Source: Thermoplasmata archaeon (GTDB lineage: Archaea > Thermoplasmatota > Thermoplasmata > Lutacidiplasmatales > UBA184). From it: a stretch of 64,000 bases of DNA. The DNA is taken from positions 98,681 to 162,680 of the forward strand of contig JAKAWX010000003.1 in assembly GCA_021816865.1 (NCBI GenBank), in the 5' to 3' direction. Numbering within the stretch: position 1 is the stretch's first letter; every line of letters starts with the position of its first letter. The notes below the pieces were generated by a model. That model did no database searches, was not told where the DNA came from, and saw nothing but the letters and a program-made list of their open reading frames with translations. Made by a program: the position numbers and the translations under genes. This document shows positions 31,196 to 48,221 of the stretch, in pieces.

Positions 31196-34100
31196 CTAGG
31201 GGGGAGGGGGCGATGGGGGGTCCCCTCGGCCGCTTCGCCGTCGCGACCGGACGAGAAGTGAAGCGACGGCCCCCACCGCGACGACCGTCCCGATCACGAT
31301 CCAGTCGAGGTCGGGCAGGCCAACCAGCGAGGCTGTCCCTGTGCCGCCGGGCGCCACCCGCGCGAAGCTCACCGAGACGTTCGTCGGCGACCCCGATACC
31401 CGGACCGAACCCGAGCTGAGGTTGGAACGGTACCCCGGGACCGAGGCGATCGCGTAGGAGTAGGTGGCATTGACCTCGCGGAACTGGATCGAGTTCGTGG
31501 ACGAGCTCCCGAGAGTTCCGTTGAGCGTGACGGACCAGGTCTCCCCTCCCGGAAGCCCGGTCTCGACGAACGTGACCGGGTACGTCGTCCCGGGGCTCGA
31601 GACCGGCACGAAGGCGATCGGGATCCGGACGGCGGCGCCGCTCACGTTCAGCGTTCCGGAAGCCGGGGTGGCGAGATACCCCGACACCGGGCCCATCGAG
31701 TACGCATACGACCCGTTCGGCTCTAAGAAGGCTAGCGTGCCGGTCGTGGCCGCCTGTGTTGCCCCTCCCAGCGTGACAGACCAAGCTTGCCCAGTCGGCA
31801 GGCCGGCCTCCGAGAACGTCACGGCGAAGGCCGACGGCGCGCGGGAGGAGAACGCAATCGACACCGAGACGGGGGTGCCGGCGACCGTGATCGATCCCGA
31901 TCCGGGGGATCCGGTGTAACCCCCCGCCGCTCCGACGGTGAACGCGTAGGTCCCGTTGGTCTCCGCAAAGCCGATCGTCGGGGATGTAGAGTTCGTCGTG
32001 GTCCCGTTGAGATCGACCGACCAGTTCGTTCCGACCGGCAGGCCGGATGCGTCGAACGTCACCGAGTAGTTCCCCTTCGACACCGCAACGAACCGGATCG
32101 AGACCGTGCTCCCCGAGGAGTTCACGAGGAGGGTGCCGCCGCTCGGAGTCGCAGCGAATCCGTTGACGGCCCCGACCGAGTAGTGATAGGTCCCGTTCGG
32201 CTCGACGAACCCCACCGCGGGGCCCGTCGACGTCGCGGTCGATCCGTTCAGCGTCACCGACCAAGCGGTGCCCGACGGCAACCCCGACTCCGCGAAGGTG
32301 ATCGCGTACTGCCCTGGGGGGATCGCACGGAACGCCACCGAAATGTTCACGCTGTGGCCGCGCACGGTGACGTTCCCGGTGCTGGGGGTGGAGAGATATC
32401 CCGCCGGTGGAACGATGGCGAACGAGTAGGTCCCGTTCGGTTCGGAGAATCCGACCCGGGGGGTCGCGCTCGTCTCGGTCGTCCCGTTCATCGAGACCGA
32501 CCACGTCGTTCCCGAGGGCAGGCCCGTCTCGTTGAAGCCGACGTCGAACGTCGTCGCCGGAAGGATCGCGACCGGCGATTGCCCGAACGTGGTGTAGGCG
32601 TACAGGTTCCCGTTCTCGGCCGAGAAGTAGAGCGCGGAGTCCACCCAGACGGTCGAACCCGCGAGGTTCGCACCGACGTTGTGGTTCCAGGCGAGGACGC
32701 CCCCGTAGGTGCGGGCCGCGTACACGGTTCCCGAGCTCGTGTCCCCCACGGCGACCCCGTCCAGAGAGGAGACGCCGATCACCGTCCCCCCGATCGGCAT
32801 CGAGTACAGGAGCTGCCCGTTCGTCGCCGCCAGGAAGTACAGGTTCCCGTCGCCCGAGCCGATGACGAACTCGGGCTGACCGTGCTGGGTGCCCGCGGTG
32901 ACCAGCGCGCCGGTGTCGGAAACCGGCCCTCCCGTCGCGTACGACCAGACGGGCGCCCCGGTCGACTCCGAGAGCGCGTAGACCGAGTCGTCGGTGGACC
33001 CGACGAGGACCGTTCCGCTCCAGATGGTGGCCGCCGCGGGGAGGGAACCGCCGAGGGACCGCGTCCAGGCGATGGCCCCAGTGCTCGCGTTGAGCGCCAC
33101 CAGCTCCCCGTTCGCCTCCCCCTCGACGAGGAGGTGTTCGGTGGGGTCGACCGCGGGCGCGGCGGTAAGCGCGCTCCCGAGCGAGACGCTCCAGACCGAC
33201 GCGCCGGTCGACTCGTTGAACGCCGCGAGGGTGTCCAGGGTCGACGCCACGTAGACCACGCCGTCCGCGAAGACCGGTGCGGAGAGGCCGCCGGCGATCG
33301 ACGCGTTCCATACCTGGGACGTGCCGGACGTCGAAATTGCGGTCAGGAGACCGCCGGTGGTCGACACGAAGACCAGTCCCCGCGCGGGGTCGACGGCGAC
33401 CCCCGAATCGACCACGGAACCGTTCGGGAGGCTGTAGTTCCACAGAAGACCGCCGTACGCGAGGTCGACCGCCGAGAGGACCCCGGACGTATCCGCGACG
33501 TAGGCGACGCCGTTCGCGATCGCCGGCGTGCCGTCGATCGGAGCCCCCGCGTAGAAGTTCCACGCGAGCTCGAGCCACGTGCCCCCGCCCACGTTCGTGT
33601 GGGCGTAGAGATTCGGGTCGTTCGGCTCGAAGTTCGTGTGCGTCGAGTTGTACCCGCCCTGCGCCCAGCTGTTCTCGACGTTGACCGGACCGGTCGCGAT
33701 GTCCCCGGACGCGGCCTGGTCGGCCGTGAGCGTCGTAAGGCCGAACGCCTCCGAGACAGGGATCGTCACGGCGAGGACCGGGAGATCGCCGGAAGAGTCC
33801 GTGCTCGCGGAACCTACCGTCGTGGTCCCCAGGGTGAACGTGACGGACTCCGAAGCGGAGAATCCCGCGCCGGTCACCGTGAGCGTCGCGCCGGGGCCGG
33901 CATCGCTCGGGCTGACAGAAAGACGCGGGCCCGACGCGACCGGAAGGACCGCGAACGCTGACTGCACGGCCGGATCGCTCGACTGCCCGGCCGAGGAGAT
34001 GGCGTAGGCCGTGACCGTGTAGGTCCCTCCGTACGCGGGCGTCGGGAACGGCAGGGACCAGTTACTGGACGCGGTCCCGGCCGCCGTCAGCGTCGCCGCG

Positions 34101-35740
34101 TTGCCGATCGGCCCGGACGACCACGACCGGGTCGAGGCATCCCACCAGGGCCCGGTGGCTCCGCCCGACTGCACCGCGACGTCCACCCCCGCAACCCCGC
34201 CGGCGTCGCCCGCCGTTCCGGAGAGCGGGAGGGAACCGGCCGGGTTCGCGATGGTCGCTCCGCCGGCTGGATAGTCGATCGCGACGGCAGGGACGATCGC
34301 ACTGTTTCCACCCCCGACGGCAAAGTCGTAGAGGAATCCGTCCGTCGAGGCGATCAGGATATTGCCGTCACTGACGGCGGGCGAGGCCGTGATGAAGCCG
34401 GCGGTCGGATAGGTGTAGAGCTGCGCTCCCGTCGCCAGGGAGACCACGTCGAACGCGCCCGCGACGTCGCCGCCGGCGACGACCGCCGAGCCGAGCGGAC
34501 CCGCGATCGCCGGCGAGGAGATCATCTCGGAACCGGACGGATCCTGGTAGCTCCAGAGGACCGAGCCGGAGGTGGCGTTCAAGTCGACGAGCCCGTGCGC
34601 GTAGCCGAAGACGACGTTCGTTCCGTCGAGCGCCGCGCTGGATCGCGGGGGCCCGGTCACTCCCAGGATCTGGTTGAAGTTGGTCGCCCAGATCTGCCGG
34701 CCCGTGGTCAGATTGAGGGCGAAGGTGATGCCGAGCTTGCTGACGACATACGCCACGCCGCCGGCGAACCCGAAGCTTCCCGGCGCACCGACGGCCGCCC
34801 CGGCCCCCACGTCGTTGTCTCCGCAGGCGCTGCCCGTGTAGGTCTGGAACCTCCAGAGCTCGGTTCCGGTAAGCGCGTTGACCGCGTAGACCGAGCAGTC
34901 CGGATCCGCCGTGCCCAAGACGATCAGAGGGACTCCGTTCGCATCGAACGTGTAGGCGAGGGGCGCCCATGTCCCCGAGACGACGGGGTATCCGCTCCAC
35001 TCCCACTCGACGTGACAGTTCGCGGCGTCGACCGCGTACAACGGCCCGCTCGTGCCCCCGTCGTTGTCCCCGAAGTAGACCGTGGGAACGCCGCCGGGCG
35101 GGGTGGCGATGACGGGGCTCGATTCGAGGCCGTGGGCGACCGGCACCGAGCAGTCGATCGCGCCGGTCGAGGCGTTCAGCTTGAAGATCGCCGGATTCAC
35201 GAACGTGCCGATCCAGAGCGAGCCGTTGCTCACGTCCGGGGTCGGGCGGATGGGGGAGCCGAGCCAGGTCGACCATACAGTCTGTCCGTTCGCCACGTCG
35301 ATCGCGAGCACGTTCCCGGTCTCGGTCCCGATGTAGGTGAGGGTCGCGCCCAGCGTCGCGTCGTACGCGACCACCGGGGAGTCGAGTGCCGCCCCATAGA
35401 GGTCCGACGCCCAGACCACCCCGAGCCGGGTGGCGTTCGAAGTGGTGATCGGGCTGTTGCTCGCGACTCCCGTGAGATTGCTGTTCCCGTGAAACTCGGC
35501 CCAGTCGTACGCCGGGGTGGGCGGAGCGGTCGCGAGCGGAGCGACGGTGTGCGTCGGACCGGTGGCCGAGCCCGGGGGAGCCAGTCCTCCCGGGACGGAG
35601 ACGTTCCACAAGAGCAGTAGAACGAGGGCGACCACTGCGACGGTCGACGTGAGCGATCGCAACGCCGGCCGCCTCCGGACCCTGCCCGGCCCGCCCCGAC
35701 GAGGGGCGCTTTCCCGGTGGGCGAGTCTCGGCCCTCGCAT
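31196..35740 (-). CDS. Giant secreted/cell-surface protein: PQQ-like beta-propeller domains, five ~80-aa C-terminal repeats, C-terminal TM anchor
   Basis: N-terminal hydrophobic signal; many 'W.....G....P.V..G.VYV.S' PQQ-like blades; repeated 'F.E.GLP.GT.WSV.LNGTT' units; C-terminal DLDWIVIGTVVAVGAVASLLVRSRRR. Confidence 0.9.
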   Translation of the reverse strand: MRGPRLAHRESAPRRGGPGRVRRRPALRSLTSTVAVVALVLLLLWNVSVPGGLAPPGSATGPTHTVAPLATAPPTPAYDWAEFHGNSNLTGVASNSPITTSNATRLGVVWASDLYGAALDSPVVAYDATLGATLTYIGTETGNVLAIDVANGQTVWSTWLGSPIRPTPDVSNGSLWIGTFVNPAIFKLNASTGAIDCSVPVAHGLESSPVIATPPGGVPTVYFGDNDGGTSGPLYAVDAANCHVEWEWSGYPVVSGTWAPLAYTFDANGVPLIVLGTADPDCSVYAVNALTGTELWRFQTYTGSACGDNDVGAGAAVGAPGSFGFAGGVAYVVSKLGITFALNLTTGRQIWATNFNQILGVTGPPRSSAALDGTNVVFGYAHGLVDLNATSGSVLWSYQDPSGSEMISSPAIAGPLGSAVVAGGDVAGAFDVVSLATGAQLYTYPTAGFITASPAVSDGNILIASTDGFLYDFAVGGGNSAIVPAVAIDYPAGGATIANPAGSLPLSGTAGDAGGVAGVDVAVQSGGATGPWWDASTRSWSSGPIGNAATLTAAGTASSNWSLPFPTPAYGGTYTVTAYAISSAGQSSDPAVQSAFAVLPVASGPRLSVSPSDAGPGATLTVTGAGFSASESVTFTLGTTTVGSASTDSSGDLPVLAVTIPVSEAFGLTTLTADQAASGDIATGPVNVENSWAQGGYNSTHTNFEPNDPNLYAHTNVGGGTWLELAWNFYAGAPIDGTPAIANGVAYVADTSGVLSAVDLAYGGLLWNYSLPNGSVVDSGVAVDPARGLVFVSTTGGLLTAISTSGTSQVWNASIAGGLSAPVFADGVVYVASTLDTLAAFNESTGASVWSVSLGSALTAAPAVDPTEHLLVEGEANGELVALNASTGAIAWTRSLGGSLPAAATIWSGTVLVGSTDDSVYALSESTGAPVWSYATGGPVSDTGALVTAGTQHGQPEFVIGSGDGNLYFLAATNGQLLYSMPIGGTVIGVSSLDGVAVGDTSSGTVYAARTYGGVLAWNHNVGANLAGSTVWVDSALYFSAENGNLYAYTTFGQSPVAILPATTFDVGFNETGLPSGTTWSVSMNGTTETSATPRVGFSEPNGTYSFAIVPPAGYLSTPSTGNVTVRGHSVNISVAFRAIPPGQYAITFAESGLPSGTAWSVTLNGSTATSTGPAVGFVEPNGTYHYSVGAVNGFAATPSGGTLLVNSSGSTVSIRFVAVSKGNYSVTFDASGLPVGTNWSVDLNGTTTNSTSPTIGFAETNGTYAFTVGAAGGYTGSPGSGSITVAGTPVSVSIAFSSRAPSAFAVTFSEAGLPTGQAWSVTLGGATQAATTGTLAFLEPNGSYAYSMGPVSGYLATPASGTLNVSGAAVRIPIAFVPVSSPGTTYPVTFVETGLPGGETWSVTLNGTLGSSSTNSIQFREVNATYSYAIASVPGYRSNLSSGSVRVSGSPTNVSVSFARVAPGGTGTASLVGLPDLDWIVIGTVVAVGAVASLLVRSRRRSGRGDPPSPPPP
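31345..32550 (-). repeat. Five tandem degenerate ~80-aa protein repeats within the surface protein
   Basis: GLPSGTTWSV/GLPSGTAWSV/GLPVGTNWSV/GLPTGQAWSV/GLPGGETWSV each followed by a NGTY/NGSY/NATY block. Confidence 0.85.
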
Positions 35741-37480: not shown

Positions 37481-40400
37481 CTAGGGCGCGCTCGGGGGCC
37501 GGCGGAACGGCCAGAACGGGGCCGCGGCCGAGACCCCCGGACTCTCGCTCGTCCCCGTCTCCTGGAGCTTCTTCAGCGCTTCGCGGGCCTTCGCGAGCGC
37601 CGCGGGGTAGCCCTGGTCCCGGAGGCGGATCGACTCGACGAGCAGCGCCCGGGCCTCGGTCGTGTCGACGTGCCGCTCGTGCGCCCGCACGAGCCCGGCG
37701 TCGATGAGGTAGTGGAGGTTCATGAGCTCGCGATGGAGGGATTTGCGGAGGCTGAGCTCTTCCTCCGTGGAGATGAGGAGCCGCGCCGCGTCGAGGAGCC
37801 GACCCGACCGGTCGAGCTCCTCGATCTCCTTCAGGCGCTCGCGGACCGGGCCGACCGTCACGTGGAGACCTTCCTCGGCGAACGTCACCTCGGCGCCGAG
37901 CTCCTTGCGCCGGGCGACGAACGGTTCGTGGATCGCCGGCTCGAGGGCCGCGCTCGCGCGGGCGAGGCCCGCCTCGGCCTCCGGGAGGTGGTGGGCGTCG
38001 AGCGCCGCGCGGGCCTCGCTGAAGGTCTGCATCATGGGCGTCGTGTCGACGCCGAGCCGCTCTCCGATCCACAGGCGGTCCTTGAACACCGCCATCTTCG
38101 CTTCGAGCTCCTCCGCCCGACGGCGTCGCGCGACCTCGAGCTCGGCGCGGAGAAGGACGAGCGCGCCGCCGAAGTCCCGACGCTCGCGTAGGGTCGCGAG
38201 CTGCCCAACGACCTCCTCGCGTCGCGCCGTCTCCGCCGCGCTCGGAGGGCCCGAGCGCGCGTACTCGGCCTCGACCTCGCGGTAGCGGCCGTCGATCACC
38301 GATTCGAAAAGGCGCCGGCTCGCCACCGTGCCCCGGTCGAGCGCTTCGCGGACCCGGCCCCAATCGCGCGTTCGCAGCGCCGCCTCGGCCTCCCCCGCGA
38401 TCGCGTCGATCGCATCGACCTCGCCCGTGAGACCCTCCTTGCGGGCCGACTCGATCTGGCGGCGGAGCTCGCCGAGCGGCGTCGCGACCAGGCGTTCGAT
38501 CGCCCATCGGGCCATCTCGGTCGCCTCGCGGCCGATGCGGATCGCCTCCGAGTACTGGCCGAGTTCGAGGAAGTGCCGTCCCTGGCCGAGGTGGCCGGCG
38601 GCCTCCGCCACGTCGGCGTGGTTCTCGATCGCTTCCGCGATCTGGCGGTCGGCCCCCCCGACCGCCTCGCGAGCGCGGCGGTGCGCTTCGCGGGCGACGC
38701 CGAGGGCATCGATCGCGGCCATCGCGCGCTCGAGGACGTCCGGATAGGCATGCTGCTGGAGGGCGGCCTTCGCGGCCTCGAACTCCTGGGAAGCGACGGG
38801 CGCGAGGATCCCCTCCGCGACGGTCCGGGCGATCGCGGCGCCGGTCGCCTCGACCGACCCTTCGGCGAGGCGGCGCTGGAGCTCGACGCGCTCGAGTTCG
38901 GTCTCGCTCTTCGCGGCGAGCTGCAGCGCCTCGACCGACCGACCCTCGTCGAGGGCCATCCGGGCCTGGTGGAGGAGGTTCTCGGCGAGCGAAGTGTCCG
39001 CGCCGGTGTTGCGGAGACGCGACAGGATCGCCTGGAAGCCCGCGAGGTTCTTCGAAACGTGCTGGTACGTCGCTTGGAGCAGGTCGCGCTCGAGCGGCCC
39101 GCCGAGTTCGATGACCCGCGCGAACTGCTTCTCGCCGAGCAACTGTTCGAGCCGGTCCATCGCCCCGCGGAGCGCGACCGTGTCGACGTGCAGGAGCTCC
39201 GCTTCGGCGAACGCCTCGCGGGCGCGCTTCGCCACGCGCTGCCCGTGTTCGACCAGGCCTCGGGTGGAGACGAACTCGCGGCGCGCCTCGTCGAGGAGCG
39301 TCGCGGCCCCAATCGGCACCGGGAGCCCGATGCGCCGCCGCGCCTCGCCGAGCGGCTCGAGGATCGGGACCAGGTCGACGCCCGCGGCTCGCGCGATGTC
39401 GAGGTCGCGCTCGAGCGCGCGCAGGTTCTCCTCGAGCACGGGTCGCAGGACGGCCGTCAGCTCGTCATGGAGGAGACGCGCGCCCGTGCGCGTCGCGCCG
39501 GCCGGGGCGGTCGTGCGCTCGGTCTTCAACTGGTGCGCGCGCGCGGCGAACGGCTCCATCGGCGCGGCGAGCCGCCGCCCGTCTTCGACGAGCTGATCGA
39601 TCTCGGCCAGGAGGCGACCGGTCTCGAGACGGGCATCTTCTTCGCCGAGCTGTGTCTCGGTCGTCTCGAGGATCTCGCGCGCCCGGTCGAACTCGAGCGC
39701 CTGGAACGCGAGCCGTGCGTTGCGCAGCGCCTCGTAGTACGGCCCCGGGTCCGCGCCCGCGCTGCGCAATCGGCCAAGATGCTCCTGACCGTGGGAGATC
39801 CCTTCGAGGATCTGCTGGGCGGCGGCCCGAGCACGGCTCGCCGACTCCTCGAGACGGGCCGCGGTCTCGTATGCGGTGAGGTGCTCGGAGGCCCGCGCCG
39901 CCGTCTGCGCGGCATCGAGCTGCGTGCGGAATTCGCGGAGGTCGAGGCCCATCGTCTCGAGTTCGACGAGCGAGAGCTTCGCGTGCGAGACCGCTTCCTC
40001 GCTGCGCAGCAGCTGTTGCTGGAGCGCGCGCGTCCGGATTTCCTGGGAGGCCCGCGACGCCTTCACGAAGTCGCCCATGTTGAAGATTTGCTGGACCTCA
40101 TCGATCTGGTGCTGGACTTCGTCACTCGGGCCGCCCATCGACTCGAGGACCCGGCGCTCGGCCTCGAGCCCCTCGACGAGCGCGGAGGCGTGGGCCGCGA
40201 AGACCGCCGAGAAGTCGCGCTCGGCCCGGCGCAGGCTATCGAGCGACCCGATGAGGTCTTCCTTGACCCGGAGGCCAACGTCCGCATCGGCGAGCAAGCG
40301 CCGGACGGGGGCCGTCAGAGCCTCGTCGGGGATGTCGGCGAGCCCCTGCTCCATCTCTTCCACCCGGTGCGCGACGTGCGGAGCGGCCGCGGTCCTCAGT

Positions 40401-41941
40401 TCGACCTCGGACCGAGCGATTCGCTCGGCGGCGTCCGCGAGGTCGCCACGGTCGAGGAGCTCGCGCGCCTCGGTGAGGCTCCCGTCGACGGACGGCGGGA
40501 GGAACTCCCGTTCCCGGGCGTACTCGCGGACCTTGTCGAGCGCCGTCCATCGACTGAGGTAGAACTGGAGCGCTTCGCGGCCGAGACGAACGACCGTCTC
40601 GCGCAGGAGCTCGCGCGCCGGTGCGACCTCCGCCCGCTCGACATGCTGGCGGAGCCGAGCGAGAACCCCGTCGAACGACTCGACGGCGAAGCCCGACCGT
40701 CGGAACCGCTCGGCCATCTCCTCGAGCGACTGGAGCTCCTCGGTGACCGTGTCGAGATCCTCGGTGAGCCGCCCGACCCGGTCGAGCGCCTCTTGGCTCG
40801 CCGCGAACGCTTCGGAGTAGATCTTGAGTCGGATCGCCTCGCGGGCCCGGTTCATCGACGCGAAGACCTCGCTCGGGTCCCGACCGAGCCGACGGGCGTT
40901 TGAGATCCGGGGCCGGATCTCGTCGAGGATGCCGGCGATCACGGTGACGACGGGCTCCTCGGCGGAGCGACGCGCCTCGACGAACAAGGGGCCGATCTCG
41001 AGCGCCGGGGCCTTGGTGATCCTCGCGAGCGCTTCGGCGATCGTCTGGCGGGCCGCCGACGGGTCGATCCCGTAGTCGACCGTCTGGTCCAGCGACGTCT
41101 TCAGCGCCTCGAGCGCGAGGGCGCACCGCTCCCGCAGGGCTTCGGTGACTTCCTCGGCGGCCCTCTCCGTCGCGGGGACCGTGTCGGGCCATTGTTCGGG
41201 CGAGACGTCGGCGCCCCGGTCGAGCGCCGCCTCGAGCCCCGAGGTCGGGGCCCCGTGCTCCTTCGCCTGGGCCATCAGGGCCGCCGCCCGGTCGCGCACC
41301 GACCGCCGCTTCTCGGCGGCCTCGGGGAGTCCTTCGCGCACGAGGCGGTGGACCGCATCGAGCGCTTCGGCGAGCCGTCCTTCCCGCGCCGGGTCGACCG
41401 CGGCGTCGAGCTGGCGCTCGAACTCCGCGAGCCGGTCCGGGGAAAGGCCGCCCCACTGTGCGGTGCGCAACGCCCGCGTCCGGGCCCGGGCGACCTGTTC
41501 GGCCTCGGCGGCGCGTAGCGCCTCCTCAACGCGGGCGAGCCGACCGATTGAGGTCGACCAGCTCTCGTCGGGGGGGAGTTGCGCGAGGGCGTCGAGCTCC
41601 GCCTTGACCTCCGTCGGGATCGCGACCCCGATCCCCGAGAGGCGTCCGAGGGCCTCGACGGTGCGGGCGCGTCGCCCCTCGAAGCTGAGCGGGACGGTCT
41701 TAGACAGATACTCGAGGAGGGCTTTCGACTCGCGGTCCACGCCGTCCCAGTCGGAGCGACGCTGGAGCTCGCGGATCGCCTGGGCCCGGTCGCTCGTCCC
41801 CGGCGGGCTCAACCCGAGCTCTCCCAGCCGCGCCAGCTGCTCCTCGACCTCCTTGAACGACGCCTCGGCGACCTGCCGCTGGCGCTTGAGCGCCTCGGCC
41901 TTCTCCTGAAGGATTCGAGTCAGGCGGGAGGACGGCAGCAC
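37481..41941 (-). CDS. Giant all-helical repeat protein (1486 aa), unknown function
   Basis: Single uninterrupted ORF with recurring '[GH]xD...ARxAL..G...EA..LA..A..EL' units at roughly 70-aa spacing; no TM or catalytic motif. Confidence 0.88.
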   Translation of the reverse strand: MLPSSRLTRILQEKAEALKRQRQVAEASFKEVEEQLARLGELGLSPPGTSDRAQAIRELQRRSDWDGVDRESKALLEYLSKTVPLSFEGRRARTVEALGRLSGIGVAIPTEVKAELDALAQLPPDESWSTSIGRLARVEEALRAAEAEQVARARTRALRTAQWGGLSPDRLAEFERQLDAAVDPAREGRLAEALDAVHRLVREGLPEAAEKRRSVRDRAAALMAQAKEHGAPTSGLEAALDRGADVSPEQWPDTVPATERAAEEVTEALRERCALALEALKTSLDQTVDYGIDPSAARQTIAEALARITKAPALEIGPLFVEARRSAEEPVVTVIAGILDEIRPRISNARRLGRDPSEVFASMNRAREAIRLKIYSEAFAASQEALDRVGRLTEDLDTVTEELQSLEEMAERFRRSGFAVESFDGVLARLRQHVERAEVAPARELLRETVVRLGREALQFYLSRWTALDKVREYAREREFLPPSVDGSLTEARELLDRGDLADAAERIARSEVELRTAAAPHVAHRVEEMEQGLADIPDEALTAPVRRLLADADVGLRVKEDLIGSLDSLRRAERDFSAVFAAHASALVEGLEAERRVLESMGGPSDEVQHQIDEVQQIFNMGDFVKASRASQEIRTRALQQQLLRSEEAVSHAKLSLVELETMGLDLREFRTQLDAAQTAARASEHLTAYETAARLEESASRARAAAQQILEGISHGQEHLGRLRSAGADPGPYYEALRNARLAFQALEFDRAREILETTETQLGEEDARLETGRLLAEIDQLVEDGRRLAAPMEPFAARAHQLKTERTTAPAGATRTGARLLHDELTAVLRPVLEENLRALERDLDIARAAGVDLVPILEPLGEARRRIGLPVPIGAATLLDEARREFVSTRGLVEHGQRVAKRAREAFAEAELLHVDTVALRGAMDRLEQLLGEKQFARVIELGGPLERDLLQATYQHVSKNLAGFQAILSRLRNTGADTSLAENLLHQARMALDEGRSVEALQLAAKSETELERVELQRRLAEGSVEATGAAIARTVAEGILAPVASQEFEAAKAALQQHAYPDVLERAMAAIDALGVAREAHRRAREAVGGADRQIAEAIENHADVAEAAGHLGQGRHFLELGQYSEAIRIGREATEMARWAIERLVATPLGELRRQIESARKEGLTGEVDAIDAIAGEAEAALRTRDWGRVREALDRGTVASRRLFESVIDGRYREVEAEYARSGPPSAAETARREEVVGQLATLRERRDFGGALVLLRAELEVARRRRAEELEAKMAVFKDRLWIGERLGVDTTPMMQTFSEARAALDAHHLPEAEAGLARASAALEPAIHEPFVARRKELGAEVTFAEEGLHVTVGPVRERLKEIEELDRSGRLLDAARLLISTEEELSLRKSLHRELMNLHYLIDAGLVRAHERHVDTTEARALLVESIRLRDQGYPAALAKAREALKKLQETGTSESPGVSAAAPFWPFRRPPSAP

Positions 41942-42097: not shown

Positions 42098-42484
42098 CTA
42101 GGTCCGGGTGATCCGTCGCTTTCCCATCGCGTCGAGATATTGGACCTCGGCGCCCGGACTGAGCTGGCCTTTCATCTCGGCATCGATCGGAAGGCTGAAC
42201 GTCTCGTAGGTCTCGAGGTCCATCAGCTGCACTTCGACATCGGTCATCGAAAGGACCTGGGCCTGGCGCTTGCCGATCATCGGCACCAGCACCTTGTGCT
42301 TTACCGGGAACACGACGCTGCGCTTCCCGCCGTCGAAGAGGCCCACCGCATCGATGCGAGCCTTCGCCTCCCCGTGCTTTCCCGGTTTCGAGGTCTGGAT
42401 GCTGATGATACGGCACGGCTCCTCCTCGATCAGCATGTACCGGCCCTCCTTCAGCTCGCGGACCTCCTGCTGCGTCCAGGCCAT
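42098..42484 (-). CDS. Translation initiation factor aIF-5A (hypusine-containing)
   Basis: [25 protein letters not shown] hypusination loop. Confidence 0.96.
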
Positions 42485-42623: not shown

Positions 42624-45600
42624 ATGGCATCGCTCCCCGACGAGTACCGGCCCGCGCAAGTCGAGCAGGAGGTCCGGGCGCTCTGGAAGGCGCACGGCCT
42701 TCCCCCGACGACCGGGAGCCTCGGCCCGGCCGGGGGACCGACGGTCCGCCAGTTCGTCGGGACGTTCACGTCCGGAGACGCGGTCGCGATGGTGGCCCAG
42801 CGCGCGTTGGCCGCGGACGTCGATGCGCGGTATCTCGCGCTCACGGGACGCCGGACGCTCGCCACCTTGCGACGGGAGGGGCGGCCCGATAGCGATCCGG
42901 CGGGCCCGGTCGAGCGAGCCCTCGTGCGACTTGGGGTCTGGGTCGGGGGCAGCGGAGGGGGTCCCTCCGACTCCGAGGACCGCCACGCCCGCGTTGAGCG
43001 GATCGTGGGTCAGCTCGCGCGGCGGGGAATCATCGCGACCCGCGACCTCCCGCTCCGCGTCTGCCCATCGTGCGCGGCCCCCCGGAGCCCCGAGCGGATC
43101 ATCTACCAGGAGGAGGACGGCGACACGTACCTCGTCCGATTCGACCTGCCGCTCGACGGCCGGGTCGCCCGGGCCCTCGTCTGGGTCGACGCACCGTGGC
43201 GGCTCCTCGCCACCAGCGCGATCCTTGTGAATCCCGACCTTCCCTACGTCGTCGCGCGCTACCGCCGTCGGGACACCGAAGAGCTCGTCTTTACGTCGCG
43301 CTCCTCGCTCGAACGGTTCCGTTCCTGGATCCCCGGTGCGACGTTCGAGGTACTGGAGGAGCGACCGGGGCGGGAGTACGCCGGGCGTGCCTACGGCTAC
43401 CCGCTCGCGCACGAGTTCCCGATGGGCGGCGCGCTCGCCCCTCCGGCCGGCACGATCCTCGAGGTGCCGGACGTTACCGATACGGGCACGGGCCTCGTCC
43501 CGCTCGTCCCCGGACACGGGGCGACCGACGCCGTGATCGCCGAGGCCCACGGGATTCCCGGGTGGCCGCTCGTCACGCCGACCGGCCAGCTCGATGTCAC
43601 GCTGAAGCACAAGTACGCCGGCCTCGACCTGCGCACGGCCACGGAGTTCATCGTCCGCGACCTCAGCGAGAGCGGCGCAATATTCGCGCAGCTGAGGGTT
43701 CGCCGGGGCGTCCCGCATTGCGCGCTTTGCGGGAGCGCCCTCGTCTGGACGCCGGGGCGCGCCTGGTGCCTCGAGCCGGGACGGCTCAGCGCGGAGCTCG
43801 CCGAAATGTACCGTCGCCTCCTCCCGGCCGCTCCGGCGTTGCCGCAGGTCGAGGTCGCACCTTGGCCGGTCAGCGAGACGACCACGAACTCGGATCCCTC
43901 GGCGGTGGCGCTGCTCGAGTGTCCGTCCTGCGAGAGCCTGGACAGCCTCGACGCCTCTCCGTCGTGCCGATGCGGCGGCACCCGCTACCCGGTCCGCCGG
44001 CGCCTAGTTCCGTCCGCCGCCGGTGTTTTGGCCGCATGGGCACGCTCGGACCCGTTCCCCGGCGCGGACACCGCCCGGCTCTACGTGGGGGAGCGGCGGG
44101 CCGTGCCGACGGTCGTCCACCACCTCACGGCGCTCGCGGGCGTGGACGGCCTACCGGCGGAGGTCGGCGTGACGCTCCTGCCGACGGTGACGGAGATCGA
44201 CCTTGTCGCGCTCGCGGACCAGCACGGCGCGGACGCCGTGCGGACCGCTCTCGTCCGGACCGACGCCTCGGGTCGGGCGAGCGAGACGTTCGTCGAGCGG
44301 TGCACGCAGGAGCGGGGCCGGCTCGACCACCTCTGGCGGTTCGCCCGCGAACTCTCGGAGCGACTCGACCCGGCGCTGCTCGCCGCGTTCGGTTCCCCGG
44401 TCTCGGGGGTCCTCGGGGAGCTTGAGGTCGAGGACCGCGCCCTCCTCGCGCGGTGGGAACGAGCGCGGGTCCGGGCACTGGCCGACTACGACCGATGGTC
44501 CGCCGCGTCGGCGCACCGTCGGGTCTTCCGGTTCCTCGAGACCGACCTCGCCGAGTACCGCGAGTGGGTCCGACCGAGGATCGCCCTCGTGGGGAGCCCC
44601 CCGTCGAAGCGCGCGGCTCTGCGCACGTTGGTCCACGTCCTCTCCGGCGCCGTCGGCCTCCTCGCGCCGGTCGCCCCCTTCACCGCCGAAAGGATCCGCC
44701 GCGCCCTCGTGCCCGACCGCACGAGCCTCTACGACGGACGCCTCGCGCCGGTCGACCGGGGGCTGATGGGCGACGATCTCACGGTGGCGTGGGACCGATG
44801 GAGGTCGGTCCTCGCGGCACTCCGTTCGTTCCGACGGGCGAACGGGCTCTCGAGCGACGTTCCGATCCCGTCGGTGGCGCTCGTCGTCGGCACGGAGGAG
44901 GTCGGGACGACGTTGCGCGGCGACCGCCCTTTGCTCGAACGTCTGGGGAACGTCGCCAAGGTCGTCGTCGGCTCCCCTTCGGACCCGTGGGCGGGGCGCC
45001 AGCACCAGATCCGGCCGAACGAGCCCGAGATCCAGCGGGTCTACGGTTCGCAGGCCTCGCAGATCGCCCACCTGCTTCGGCGCATGCCCCCGCGGCGGGT
45101 CCGCGACCCGGGCGGCGGTTCCGACCTCTCCGTCGTCATCCAGGGCCAGCCGCGCACGCTCGCACCGTCGATGGTCTCCTACTCCGAGAGCCTGCCCGAG
45201 CGGGTCGTCCCCACCCCGTGGAGCCTCGGCGAAATGTACGCGGAACGCCCCGTAGCCGGCCGCTCGTCCGCGAGCCCACCGCCCCTCTCGCCCGACGCGT
45301 TCTGGCTCGTGCGCCGGCTCGATCGCCGCCTGCGGCGTGGGCGCGCTTCCGGGTCGGTGCCCACGGTCGCCGTCATCGCGACCTCGGACCCGCTCGCCGC
45401 CGAACTGAGCTCGGCCTCCGGTCCGCTCGCAGCCTACCTTGGGCTCGGGGAGGTCCGGGTGAGCGATCGGATCGAGGAGCCTGCCCCCTCCGGGGCGGTC
45501 ACCGGGCGCGCGAAAACGGGCGTCCGCTGGTGGGTCGACGTCCCGGGGCTCACGCGCCCCCCGCGCCGAACGAAAGTCCGCGCGTCCCGACGGCACCGGC

Positions 45601-47384
45601 GCCGGTTCCCGAGCGGGTTCGTTCCCGTCGGGGGTGTTCCCGTCGAGGTCGACTACGCGGCCGAGGAGGTCGTTTCTCGGGAGCAGGCCATCCGGGCGCT
45701 CAACCAGGAGCTGGACGCCGTCCTCGGCGTCCCGGTGCTGGGCCCGACCAAGGTCGCGGCGGCCTGGGACAAAGGCCTACGACGTGTCGAACAGTTCCGC
45801 GACGTTCCGTTCGAGGACCTATCGGCCCTGCCCGGGTTCGGCCGGGCGGTGGTCGAGCTCCTCTTCGGCCGGTTCGGGGTTGCCGGGTCGGTCCCGGCGA
45901 CGCCCGGACCGGCCCCCGTCGCTCCGTCGCGCCGACGCCGAGCCCACGCGCCACCGGCCCTACCGGTCGGGCCGGCGACCGCCGATCTCTCGGCGGTCGG
46001 CCCCGCCGCCGCAGAGACCCGGTCGCCACCGTTGGCCATGGGCTCCTTGGCCGCCGCGCCCGACTCGTCCGAGCTCCCCGCGGCGAGCCCTGTATCGACG
46101 GCGGAGGCTCCCGCATCGCTCGTTCCCCCATCGGGGTGCGCGCAAGGGGCCGGGACCCCCTCTCTCTCAACCTCGCTCGTGCCGGTCCCGACGTCGTCCC
46201 CGCTCGTTCCGTCGGACCTCCGGGACCGCCCGCGCGCCCTCGTCGAGACGGACGCTGTCGTCCCGGAGGAAAGACCACAGGACGAACCCGGGCCCGAGTC
46301 CCCGGAGGCGCTCCCGATCCCTCCGTCGCCCGGCTCTCCGGCCCACGACGGCGTGGCGGCCGATGGAGCCGAAGCGGCGGGGACGGGCGCCGTACTCCCT
46401 CTAGCCCTCGAGGCCGCGATCGAGGCCGACGCCCAAAACGCTGGAGCCCTGACGGAGACGCCGGGACGGGAGACCGAACCGGCCGCGGGGAGCGCGGTCG
46501 ATCGGGGCTCGCTTCCCGCACCCGCGTCGCCGGCGGTAGCGGAGGAGTCCCCGACAACCGCTCCCAGCGGTCCCGCGGCCGGTCCTGCCTCCACCACCGG
46601 GCCTGTGGGAGGCGTCGGGACCACGGATGCCCCTGTGGGCGGGCCGGCCCGTCCGGTCGGGGGCGACGCGGCCGTTTTCCCGGGGGCCGAGCCTCGTATC
46701 TCGCTCGATCCCGTGACGCCGACGTCCATTAAGGCGTCCGGTGCGACGGACCCACGTTCGCCCCCGGGCTCGCCACCCGAGCCGCCGATCCCTCCCGAAG
46801 GAACCACGACCCGAGGGCCTCCGGCCCCCGCCGGTTCAGCCTCGTCGTCGCGTTCCCTTGAGGCCCCCCCTATCGCGCTCCCGGCCGTGCCGCCGGAGGA
46901 GCCGGCGCGGGGATCGGTTTCCGCGCCTCCGAGGGCCGGTGTGGAACTCGAAGTGGGAAGCTCGATCCTGACGTCCCTCCAGCCGTTCCTTGATGCGACG
47001 GCCGCCGGGCACCCCGGGCTGTGTCTCGTGCGAGAGTCGCCGGAGCGCATCTCGGCCCAGGTCGGCCGCCGCCCCGTCGATGTCTACTGGCTTACGAACC
47101 TCGGGCGGGGGCGGACCCTCAAGCCGAACGACCTTCCCGCGGTCTTCGCGTCGCTGACGCGCGCGATCACCGGGGAAGGCCGGACGGTCGTCTTCGTCGA
47201 GGGGCTCGAGTACCTGGTCCGGCTCCACGGGGTCGACGCCGTGGTCGACCGACTCGCAGAGTTCGACCGGTTCGCGAAGGAGCACGACGTCCGGGTGTGG
47301 ACGCACGTGAGCCCCGAACTCCTGCGGCCCACCGACCTCGAGCGGTTCGTCCGCCGCTTCACTCGGTCCGGACCGTCCGCGTAG
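42624..47384 (+). CDS. IleRS-like pseudo-aminoacyl-tRNA synthetase fused to HhH, low-complexity linker and DUF835-like domain (1586 aa)
   Basis: Editing-domain ([17 protein letters not shown]), Zn-binding cysteines (CPSC, CALC, CPSC/CRC) and anticodon-domain ([13 protein letters not shown]...[13 protein letters not shown]) similarity to class Ia IleRS; HIGH and KMSKS absent; HhH-like [10 protein letters not shown]...[13 protein letters not shown]-terminal [26 protein letters not shown] as in DUF835. Confidence 0.85.
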
Positions 47385-47495: not shown

Positions 47496-48221
47496 ATGGG
47501 GACCGTGCGTACCTCCGCCGAGCGGGCCCGCCGGCGGACGGCCCCGCTCGCGGTCCTGCTCGTCGTCGTTCTGCTCCTCGGTGCGGCCGGGGCGTTCGCC
47601 CCCGGCGCGGCGCGGGCCGCCGCGATCGGATGCTCGAACGTGAGCGCGAAGTACGGTGTGAACGCCACGGTCACGTGGAACGGCGTGAACGTGTGTTCGG
47701 GCGGTTCCGCCTCGTCGGCGTTCTCGGTCGACCTCACCCAGTCGATCGGCCTGCGCTACAACTGGTCCGGACCGCTGGGCCATCCGCTGTCGCTGAACGA
47801 CGCTCGACTCCAGATGTTCTACTTCGGCTTCCCGCTCGCGACCCGGGACGTCACGACGGTCGGGGGCGTCCAGGGGCCCTCCGGGAGCTTCGTCATGAAC
47901 TGGACCCCCGGAGTGATCGCCTACGTCCTCGAGGGGCTCTACGGGCTGACCGCGAGCCTCCTCGCGACGAACGGCACGACAGTTTTCAGCGAGGATTTCT
48001 TCGTCCATGCGAACGCCCCCTACGGGATCCTTGCGGCCCTTCCGATCCTCCTCGTCGTCCTCGGGATCTACGAGGTCTACAACGTCGCGCGTTCGGGACG
48101 GCAGGCCGCGCTCCCGAAGCGGGCAGCGCCGGCAGGCCCCCCGCCGCCGCCGCCGGAGCCGGGCGCGGGACCCGGTCCGGACGGCGCGGGTACTCCCCCT
48201 CCGGGAGCCGGAGGACCATGA
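47496..48221 (+). CDS. Secreted/membrane-anchored protein with signal peptide, C-terminal TM and proline-rich tail
   Basis: Hydrophobic N-terminus ending AAGAFAPGAARA; TM NAPYGILAALPILLVVLGIYEVYNVA; tail PPPPPPEPGAGP. Confidence 0.75.
   Translation: MGTVRTSAERARRRTAPLAVLLVVVLLLGAAGAFAPGAARAAAIGCSNVSAKYGVNATVTWNGVNVCSGGSASSAFSVDLTQSIGLRYNWSGPLGHPLSLNDARLQMFYFGFPLATRDVTTVGGVQGPSGSFVMNWTPGVIAYVLEGLYGLTASLLATNGTTVFSEDFFVHANAPYGILAALPILLVVLGIYEVYNVARSGRQAALPKRAAPAGPPPPPPEPGAGPGPDGAGTPPPGAGGP

Follow-up and report, generated by a model that had tools for sequence, protein, structure and literature searches.

A putative pseudo-isoleucyl-tRNA synthetase ending in DUF835, the apparent end point of a decay series of fused synthetases in Thermoplasmata

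The window analyzed here, a 64,000-nt stretch of a Thermoplasmata archaeon genome (GCA_021816865.1, contig JAKAWX010000003.1, positions 98,681-162,680 of the forward strand), encodes a 1586-aa protein whose evolutionary identity as a pseudo-synthetase derived from isoleucyl-tRNA synthetase (IleRS) is well supported by sequence comparisons. What sets this protein apart appears to be that catalysis was lost in the presence of a second IleRS, and the dead IleRS probably has a regulatory second role.

Domain layout and loss of the synthetic site

The gene, its parts and its two neighbors are as follows.

42624..47384, + strand: pseudo-isoleucyl-tRNA synthetase gene, a stop-free ORF of 1586 aa
42624..42983, + strand: remnant of the first Rossmann half (aa 1-120), with the HIGH position at 42762-42794
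42984..43808, + strand: CP1 editing domain (aa 121-395), matched by structures; lowest dN/dS of the body
within 42984..43808, + strand: CP1 zinc cysteine pairs C147/C150 and C366/C369
from 43182, + strand: WVDAPW pocket motif of CP1
43527-43529, + strand: invariant D302 of CP1
43809..44243, + strand: eroded second Rossmann half (aa 396-540), RYWG and KMSKS segments lost
within aa 396-540, + strand: retained zinc-type cysteines 433/436/448/450
44244..44903, + strand: stem-contact fold and anticodon-binding domain (aa 541-760)
44904..45548, + strand: archaeal-type IleRS C-terminal region (aa 761-975), missing from the second IleRS of carrier genomes
45690..45893, + strand: helix-hairpin-helix (HhH, aa 1023-1090)
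45894..46928, + strand: low-complexity linker (aa 1091-1435), near-neutral in the closest pair
46929..47384, + strand: DUF835 (aa 1436-1586), KaiC/FlaH-like fold without Walker A
42098..42484, - strand: aIF-5A gene, divergent neighbor
37481..41941, - strand: gene immediately downstream of aIF-5A; its 1486-aa product has no Pfam match and reads as coiled-coil-like

Similarity to IleRS is significant over the CP1 and anticodon-binding regions, indicating that the protein is an IleRS homolog by descent, as a reading of the sequence without database searches (the sequence-only reading) had proposed. NCBIfam TIGR00392 (ileS) matches at E=8e-30 with 103.7 bits, below its curated cut-off of 621 bits. 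The protein alone matches solved IleRS structures at E=2e-16 through its editing domain, and a profile of its orthologs matches the solved IleRS 8c9d at E=1.7e-48 over positions 94-395 and 531-866 (CP1 and anticodon region).

The tail of HhH, disordered linker and DUF835 described in that reading was likewise recovered. In Pfam, Anticodon_1 (604-747) and DUF835 (PF05763; 1457-1577, E=9e-14, 51.8 bits against a gathering score of 33.1) lie above cut-off and HHH_5 is weak (1032-1078, E=0.014); these are the only matches, and a kinase domain is absent. The linker of 345 aa consists to 67% of P/A/S/T/G. The AlphaFold2 model of the IleRS-like body (aa 1-1092, three sequences) reached a pLDDT of 42 and was left unused. 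DUF835 was modeled with a pLDDT of 88.6, and a fold search with this model matched FlaH and KaiC, a relation seen in the fold search only; the DUF835 sequence itself matched no solved structure. A Walker A motif was looked for in DUF835 and is absent. In archaeal response regulators DUF835 is termed an inactive KaiC (PMC5847659). A KaiC/FlaH fold without Walker A, together with this description, would make a role in binding or oligomerization likelier than ATP hydrolysis.

The motifs HIGH, SRxRYWG, DQTRGWF and KMSKS are gone in the window protein and in all aligned orthologs of its family (f1), so that the loss of HIGH and KMSKS, noticed earlier in the one protein, extends to its relatives. 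Also missing from both are about 55 aa after HIGH and the whole W(A)LSRxRYWG and DQTRGWF segments. The protein thus neither reaches the TIGR00392 cut-off nor carries the HIGH and KMSKS of a functional IleRS. At the level of sequence its synthetic activity is gone, and the loss of all synthetic motifs makes aminoacyl-adenylate formation unlikely. The zinc-ligand cysteines of the sequence-only reading are present at 147/150, 366/369 and 433/436/448/450. A zinc knuckle at C433-C450 was considered as a novelty of the pseudo form and rejected, since live archaeal IleRSs have cysteines 433, 448 and 450.

Orthologs, the ordinary IleRS and the aIF-5A neighborhood

Among 41 genomes of the window's family, orthologs were found in 20 besides the window's own, in genera g1, g5 and g6. 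They share 33-63% identity with the window protein over its first 846 aa and 31-59% over the body; a fragment in G034 is 84% identical over 120 aa. Complete copies are open frames of ~1300-2070 aa across the three genera. The named ortholog loci belong to Thermoplasmata archaeon MAGs. The presence of orthologs in 20 further genomes and purifying selection outside the linker exclude a chance origin of the ORF. Genera g2, g3, g4 and g7 and six g1 genomes of the sample yielded no pseudo-IleRS, and a profile search of these genera and the six g1 non-carriers for a diverged copy beside aIF-5A found none. Thus, the pseudo-IleRS is dispensable over evolutionary time.

Exactly one ordinary IleRS (751-797 bits, ~1000 aa) is encoded in 19 of the 21 carriers, and HIGH and KMSKS were found by pattern in most of these enzymes. 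The sequence-only reading had called for a separate functional ileS; a functional-looking one is present in those 19 genomes and missing from the window's own assembly (83% complete), and G016 (94% complete, 90 contigs) likewise shows none. When an 8-kb stretch around ileS of the sister genome G036 was compared with the window genome, only two short matches were obtained, and an ileS-flanking gene that is 63-79% conserved within the genus has a best match of just 27% there. As the flanking genes of the locus are also missing, the ordinary ileS locus of the window genome most likely fell into an assembly gap. A 926-aa hit in G026 with a near-twin in G033, considered as another IleRS, turned out to be a valyl-tRNA synthetase.

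The divergent placement next to aIF-5A, already seen in the window, recurs in all 19 carrier loci with upstream sequence, usually at less than 0.4 kb, with L055 and L063 (~2 kb) as exceptions. A protein of ~1490 aa follows aIF-5A in 18 of these 19 loci, and no sampled carrier of the window family lacks the 1486-aa gene. A gene of this type also adjoins aIF-5A without a pseudo-IleRS in g2, g3, g4 and g7; the g3 loci of this kind include G008, G014 and G002. The six g1 non-carriers have neither the pseudo-IleRS nor the 1486-aa protein and keep aIF-5A. In a tree of ordinary IleRSs four of these six group as two distinct, supported pairs without a supported placement, and the co-absence may represent one or few events. 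Fusions outside the window family do not share the aIF-5A linkage, indicating that it is not general to the function.

IleRS-DUF835 fusions in other families and their descent

When 390 genomes of the phylum were searched with a profile, IleRSs of ~1240-1825 aa ending in DUF835 turned up in many families of the class. HhH-like motifs lie between IleRS and DUF835 in five of the six fusions inspected at full length; none is clear in L149 (1239 aa). Fusions with complete or almost complete synthetic motifs occur in f4(g24), f7, f9, f10, f11, f12, f15, f16, f17 and f19; those of f2, f14 and f18 have lost the motifs in part, and those of f3 and f20 have lost them. In eight of the ten families with an intact fusion (f4(g24), f7, f9, f10, f12, f15, f16 and f17) it is the sole IleRS, and f11 and f19 have a second one besides. 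The decayed fusions are accompanied by a second, strong IleRS in every case. With f1 included, a second IleRS is therefore found in 6/6 families with a decayed fusion versus 2/10 with an intact one (Fisher p=0.007, uncorrected for kinship among families that are not independent, f1, f2 and f3 belonging to one order and f14 and f18 being sisters in the tree). Decay may therefore have set in independently only two or three times.

Scores against TIGR00392 fall from 908-987 bits in intact fusions to 706-736 in f2, f14 and f18, 308-348 in f3 and f20, and 104 in the window protein, and on this sequence scale the window family appears as the most eroded step of the series. Among the decayed or dead forms examined, each complete one still has DUF835. 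Twenty unfused IleRSs without DUF835 all have the synthetic motifs. The fused arrangement, taken for a candidate new system when the window was first read, is instead by all appearances an old architecture of catalytically intact IleRSs, which predates the window protein. A description of IleRS-DUF835 proteins, or of the window pseudo-IleRS, was not found in the open-access literature.

Intact fusions (L137-L144, L146, L149, L151-L153, L172) share with the window protein the order IleRS - HhH - (zinc ribbon) - linker - DUF835 and the archaeal-type C-terminal region. Unlike it, they keep YTTGxIHLGT, SRQRYWG, DQTRGWF and MSKS with small variations, all four of which the window protein has lost, and they are mostly the sole IleRS of their genome.

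In a tree of 71 IleRS bodies, a fully supported branch separates a group made up of the window clade and the fusions, both decayed and intact, the latter interspersed with six unfused relatives, from the remaining unfused IleRSs and the second IleRSs. These second IleRSs join the ordinary IleRS of the window family in one 100% clade, most members of which carry TANGxPHxGH motifs. With the long branches involved, AU tests rejected neither a window clade constrained to this IleRS2 type (p-AU 0.27) nor fused IleRSs constrained together without the window clade (p-AU 0.36), and sites discriminating archaeal IleRS from IleRS2 are mostly altered to neither in the window clade. Profile-profile comparison of the window protein gave scores of 569 with fused archaeal IleRS, 549 with unfused archaeal IleRS and 382 with IleRS2; its C-terminal region (aa 761-975) scores 127.9 bits against fused IleRS and 29.3 against IleRS2. 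The DUF835 of g6 orthologs reaches 97-101 bits against a model built solely from fusions outside the window family. Common descent of the fusion best accounts for the profile comparison, the DUF835 scores and the shared domain order, short of proof.

Selection on the editing domain and possible functions

Of the positions that 90% or more of live archaeal IleRSs have in common, the window clade retains 53% within CP1 and 35% within the anticodon region; in the Rossmann halves the share is 22% (first) and 19% (second). The window gene was also compared with two full-length relatives by Nei-Gojobori dN/dS, where synonymous sites show partial saturation in the more distant pairs. Values are lowest of the body in CP1 (0.21-0.24) and reach 0.59-0.84 for the first Rossmann part. 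For the closest pair (window gene and L008) the value is 0.16 for DUF835 and 0.85 for the linker. These values point to purifying selection on the pseudo-IleRS outside the linker. A redundant IleRS drifting to loss as a decaying pseudogene is disfavored by the sequences and very improbable, because all complete copies are open frames of ~1300-2070 aa in three genera at 31-59% identity, with invariant residues and a dN/dS of 0.16-0.31 across CP1, the second Rossmann part and, in the closest pair, DUF835, even though the linker and N-terminus evolve fast and several genera and six g1 genomes have no detected copy.

Within CP1, five residues (T289, G290, H298, G299 and D302) each occur in 85% or more of the live IleRSs and likewise of the window clade. 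H298 and D302 are present in 16/16 rows of alignment A1, and D302 is invariant in the aligned f1 orthologs, so that the conserved aspartate of a trans-editing factor is there and the editing-site conservation asked about in the sequence-only reading is found at this residue. In the IleRSs of yeast and Streptomyces, the matching aspartate holds the tRNA-bound amino acid by its amino group, and without this residue deacylation drops 10^4-fold (PMC4861432). The middle threonine of WTTTPW (T189) is D in 18/19 and E in 1/19 of the window clade; the motif reads WVDAPW in the window protein, which thus lacks the threonine-rich pocket, and the histidine of GTGxVH is P/G/T/A in the window family. Judged by the retention of D302 and H298 and the near-invariant T189 to D change, the pocket seems to have been re-tuned and not given up. 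Retention of the anticodon-binding domain is no more than moderate, and specificity for tRNA-Ile may therefore have been lost.

We favor, with middling confidence, a pseudo-synthetase that arose by synthetase displacement and was kept as a tRNA-state-dependent adaptor or regulator. The ancestor would have been an archaeal-type IleRS already bearing the C-terminal HhH and DUF835. A second, eukaryote-like IleRS (IleRS2 type) would then have taken over charging of tRNA-Ile, after which the synthetic site was presumably lost and the remainder kept by purifying selection. The CP1 pocket with its D302 anchor, the anticodon-binding domain and the C-terminal domains may still bind tRNA-Ile or (mis)aminoacyl-tRNA, and the flexible linker might present the inactive KaiC-like DUF835 to a partner, a job that the bifunctional ancestor would already have done beside charging. 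Of the functions suggested in the sequence-only reading, those of a tRNA-linked regulator and of a trans-editing factor agree best with the data, since the editing domain is the best-kept part; a Gcn2-type kinase fusion does not fit, no kinase being present.

Trans-editing is a possible but doubtful alternative. The protein would hydrolyze mischarged aminoacyl-tRNA (tRNA-Ile or other) through its re-tuned CP1 and back up the second IleRS. Conservation is highest in CP1, where D302, H298, T289 and G290 are kept and a near-invariant aspartate in place of the pocket threonine resembles re-tuning more than decay. However, the pocket-lining threonines and the GTGxVH histidine are replaced, the f2 decayed form has glutamate at the position of the editing aspartate, the ordinary IleRS2 of carrier genomes has an intact editing site, and free-standing editing leaves DUF835 unexplained. 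Somewhat less probable still, and unlikely on the whole, is a protein that acts only through DUF835, HhH and a protein scaffold (e.g., the 1486-aa protein or a KaiC-like ATPase), its IleRS body being structural and making no contact with tRNA or amino acid. While DUF835 is retained in every complete decayed form and the 1486-aa gene accompanies every sampled carrier and is missing from the six g1 non-carriers, the most constrained part of the body is CP1 with its substrate-contacting aspartate, the 1486-aa gene also occurs without a pseudo-IleRS in four genera, and the six joint absences may go back to a small number of events.

The closest described cases for the displaced, regulatory synthetase that we favor appear, by analogy, to be LeuRS-I of Sulfolobaceae and LeuRS2 of Halobacteria, likewise second class I archaeal paralogs with poor or no charging and a role in tRNA binding or growth (PMC9437257). 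As with LeuRS-I, an ordinary synthetase of the same specificity coexists in 19/21 carriers. LeuRS-I still forms the adenylate while its CP1 is disrupted, whereas the window protein seems to have lost the synthetic site and kept CP1, and no DUF835 is mentioned for either LeuRS (PMC9437257). IleRS2 and mupirocin-resistant second IleRSs also stand beside an original gene, but there both enzymes are active, and here the second IleRS is ordinary and the original apparently dead (PMC4861432, PMC9437257). SbzA of altemicidin biosynthesis is IleRS-derived with a non-charging role, as proposed here, but moves Ile from Ile-tRNA to a metabolite, (PMC9437257); a biosynthetic cluster was not seen near the window gene. 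The considered passages on inactive-KaiC response regulators place DUF835 at the C-terminus of archaeal proteins, Thermoplasmata included; these are receiver/PAS proteins, and the passages mention no synthetase fusion (PMC5847659).

The fusions form a natural decay series in which an essential enzyme goes from sole to redundant to dead and the extra domain is always retained. Tentatively, the Thermoplasmata fusions may be bifunctional, charging tRNA-Ile and reporting its charging state or editing to a KaiC-like partner; the charging half would have been shed repeatedly and independently beside a second IleRS, with the window protein as the most derived tRNA-state receptor. We know of no Gcn2 or stringent-type equivalent established in archaea. 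The series separates the second function of the synthetase from charging, and the pseudo-synthetase should retain the non-charging job of the intact fusions. If true, this would provide an archaeal candidate for tRNA-state sensing.

Genes around the pseudo-IleRS

Features of the window flanking the pseudo-IleRS gene and its divergent neighbour aIF-5A
31196-35740, minus strand: 1514-aa protein with several matches of PQQ-type beta-propeller
37481-41941, minus strand: 1486-aa protein, read from its sequence as coiled-coil-like
47496-48221, plus strand: 241-aa protein, read likewise as membrane-type

Neither the 1486-aa nor the 241-aa protein has a match in Pfam. The 1486-aa gene, which sits directly downstream of aIF-5A in the window's family, encodes a protein with 24-68% identity between genera, and six genomes of genus g1 lack both this protein and the pseudo-IleRS. 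The 241-aa gene directly follows the pseudo-IleRS, an order found with its homologue in some relatives only.

Decay of IleRS-DUF835 fusions

Two partly decayed fusions, L145 (genome G347, 1774 aa) and L148 (G377, 1825 aa), each have a second IleRS alongside and represent intermediates of the decay series. Long acidic stretches lie between the HhH motifs and DUF835 of L145.

Loci L136 and L171 of family f2 have lost KMSKS and retained HIGH and RYWG; their altered editing pocket reads WTPYPW, with E at the catalytic aspartate position. Decay follows a different route in these two.
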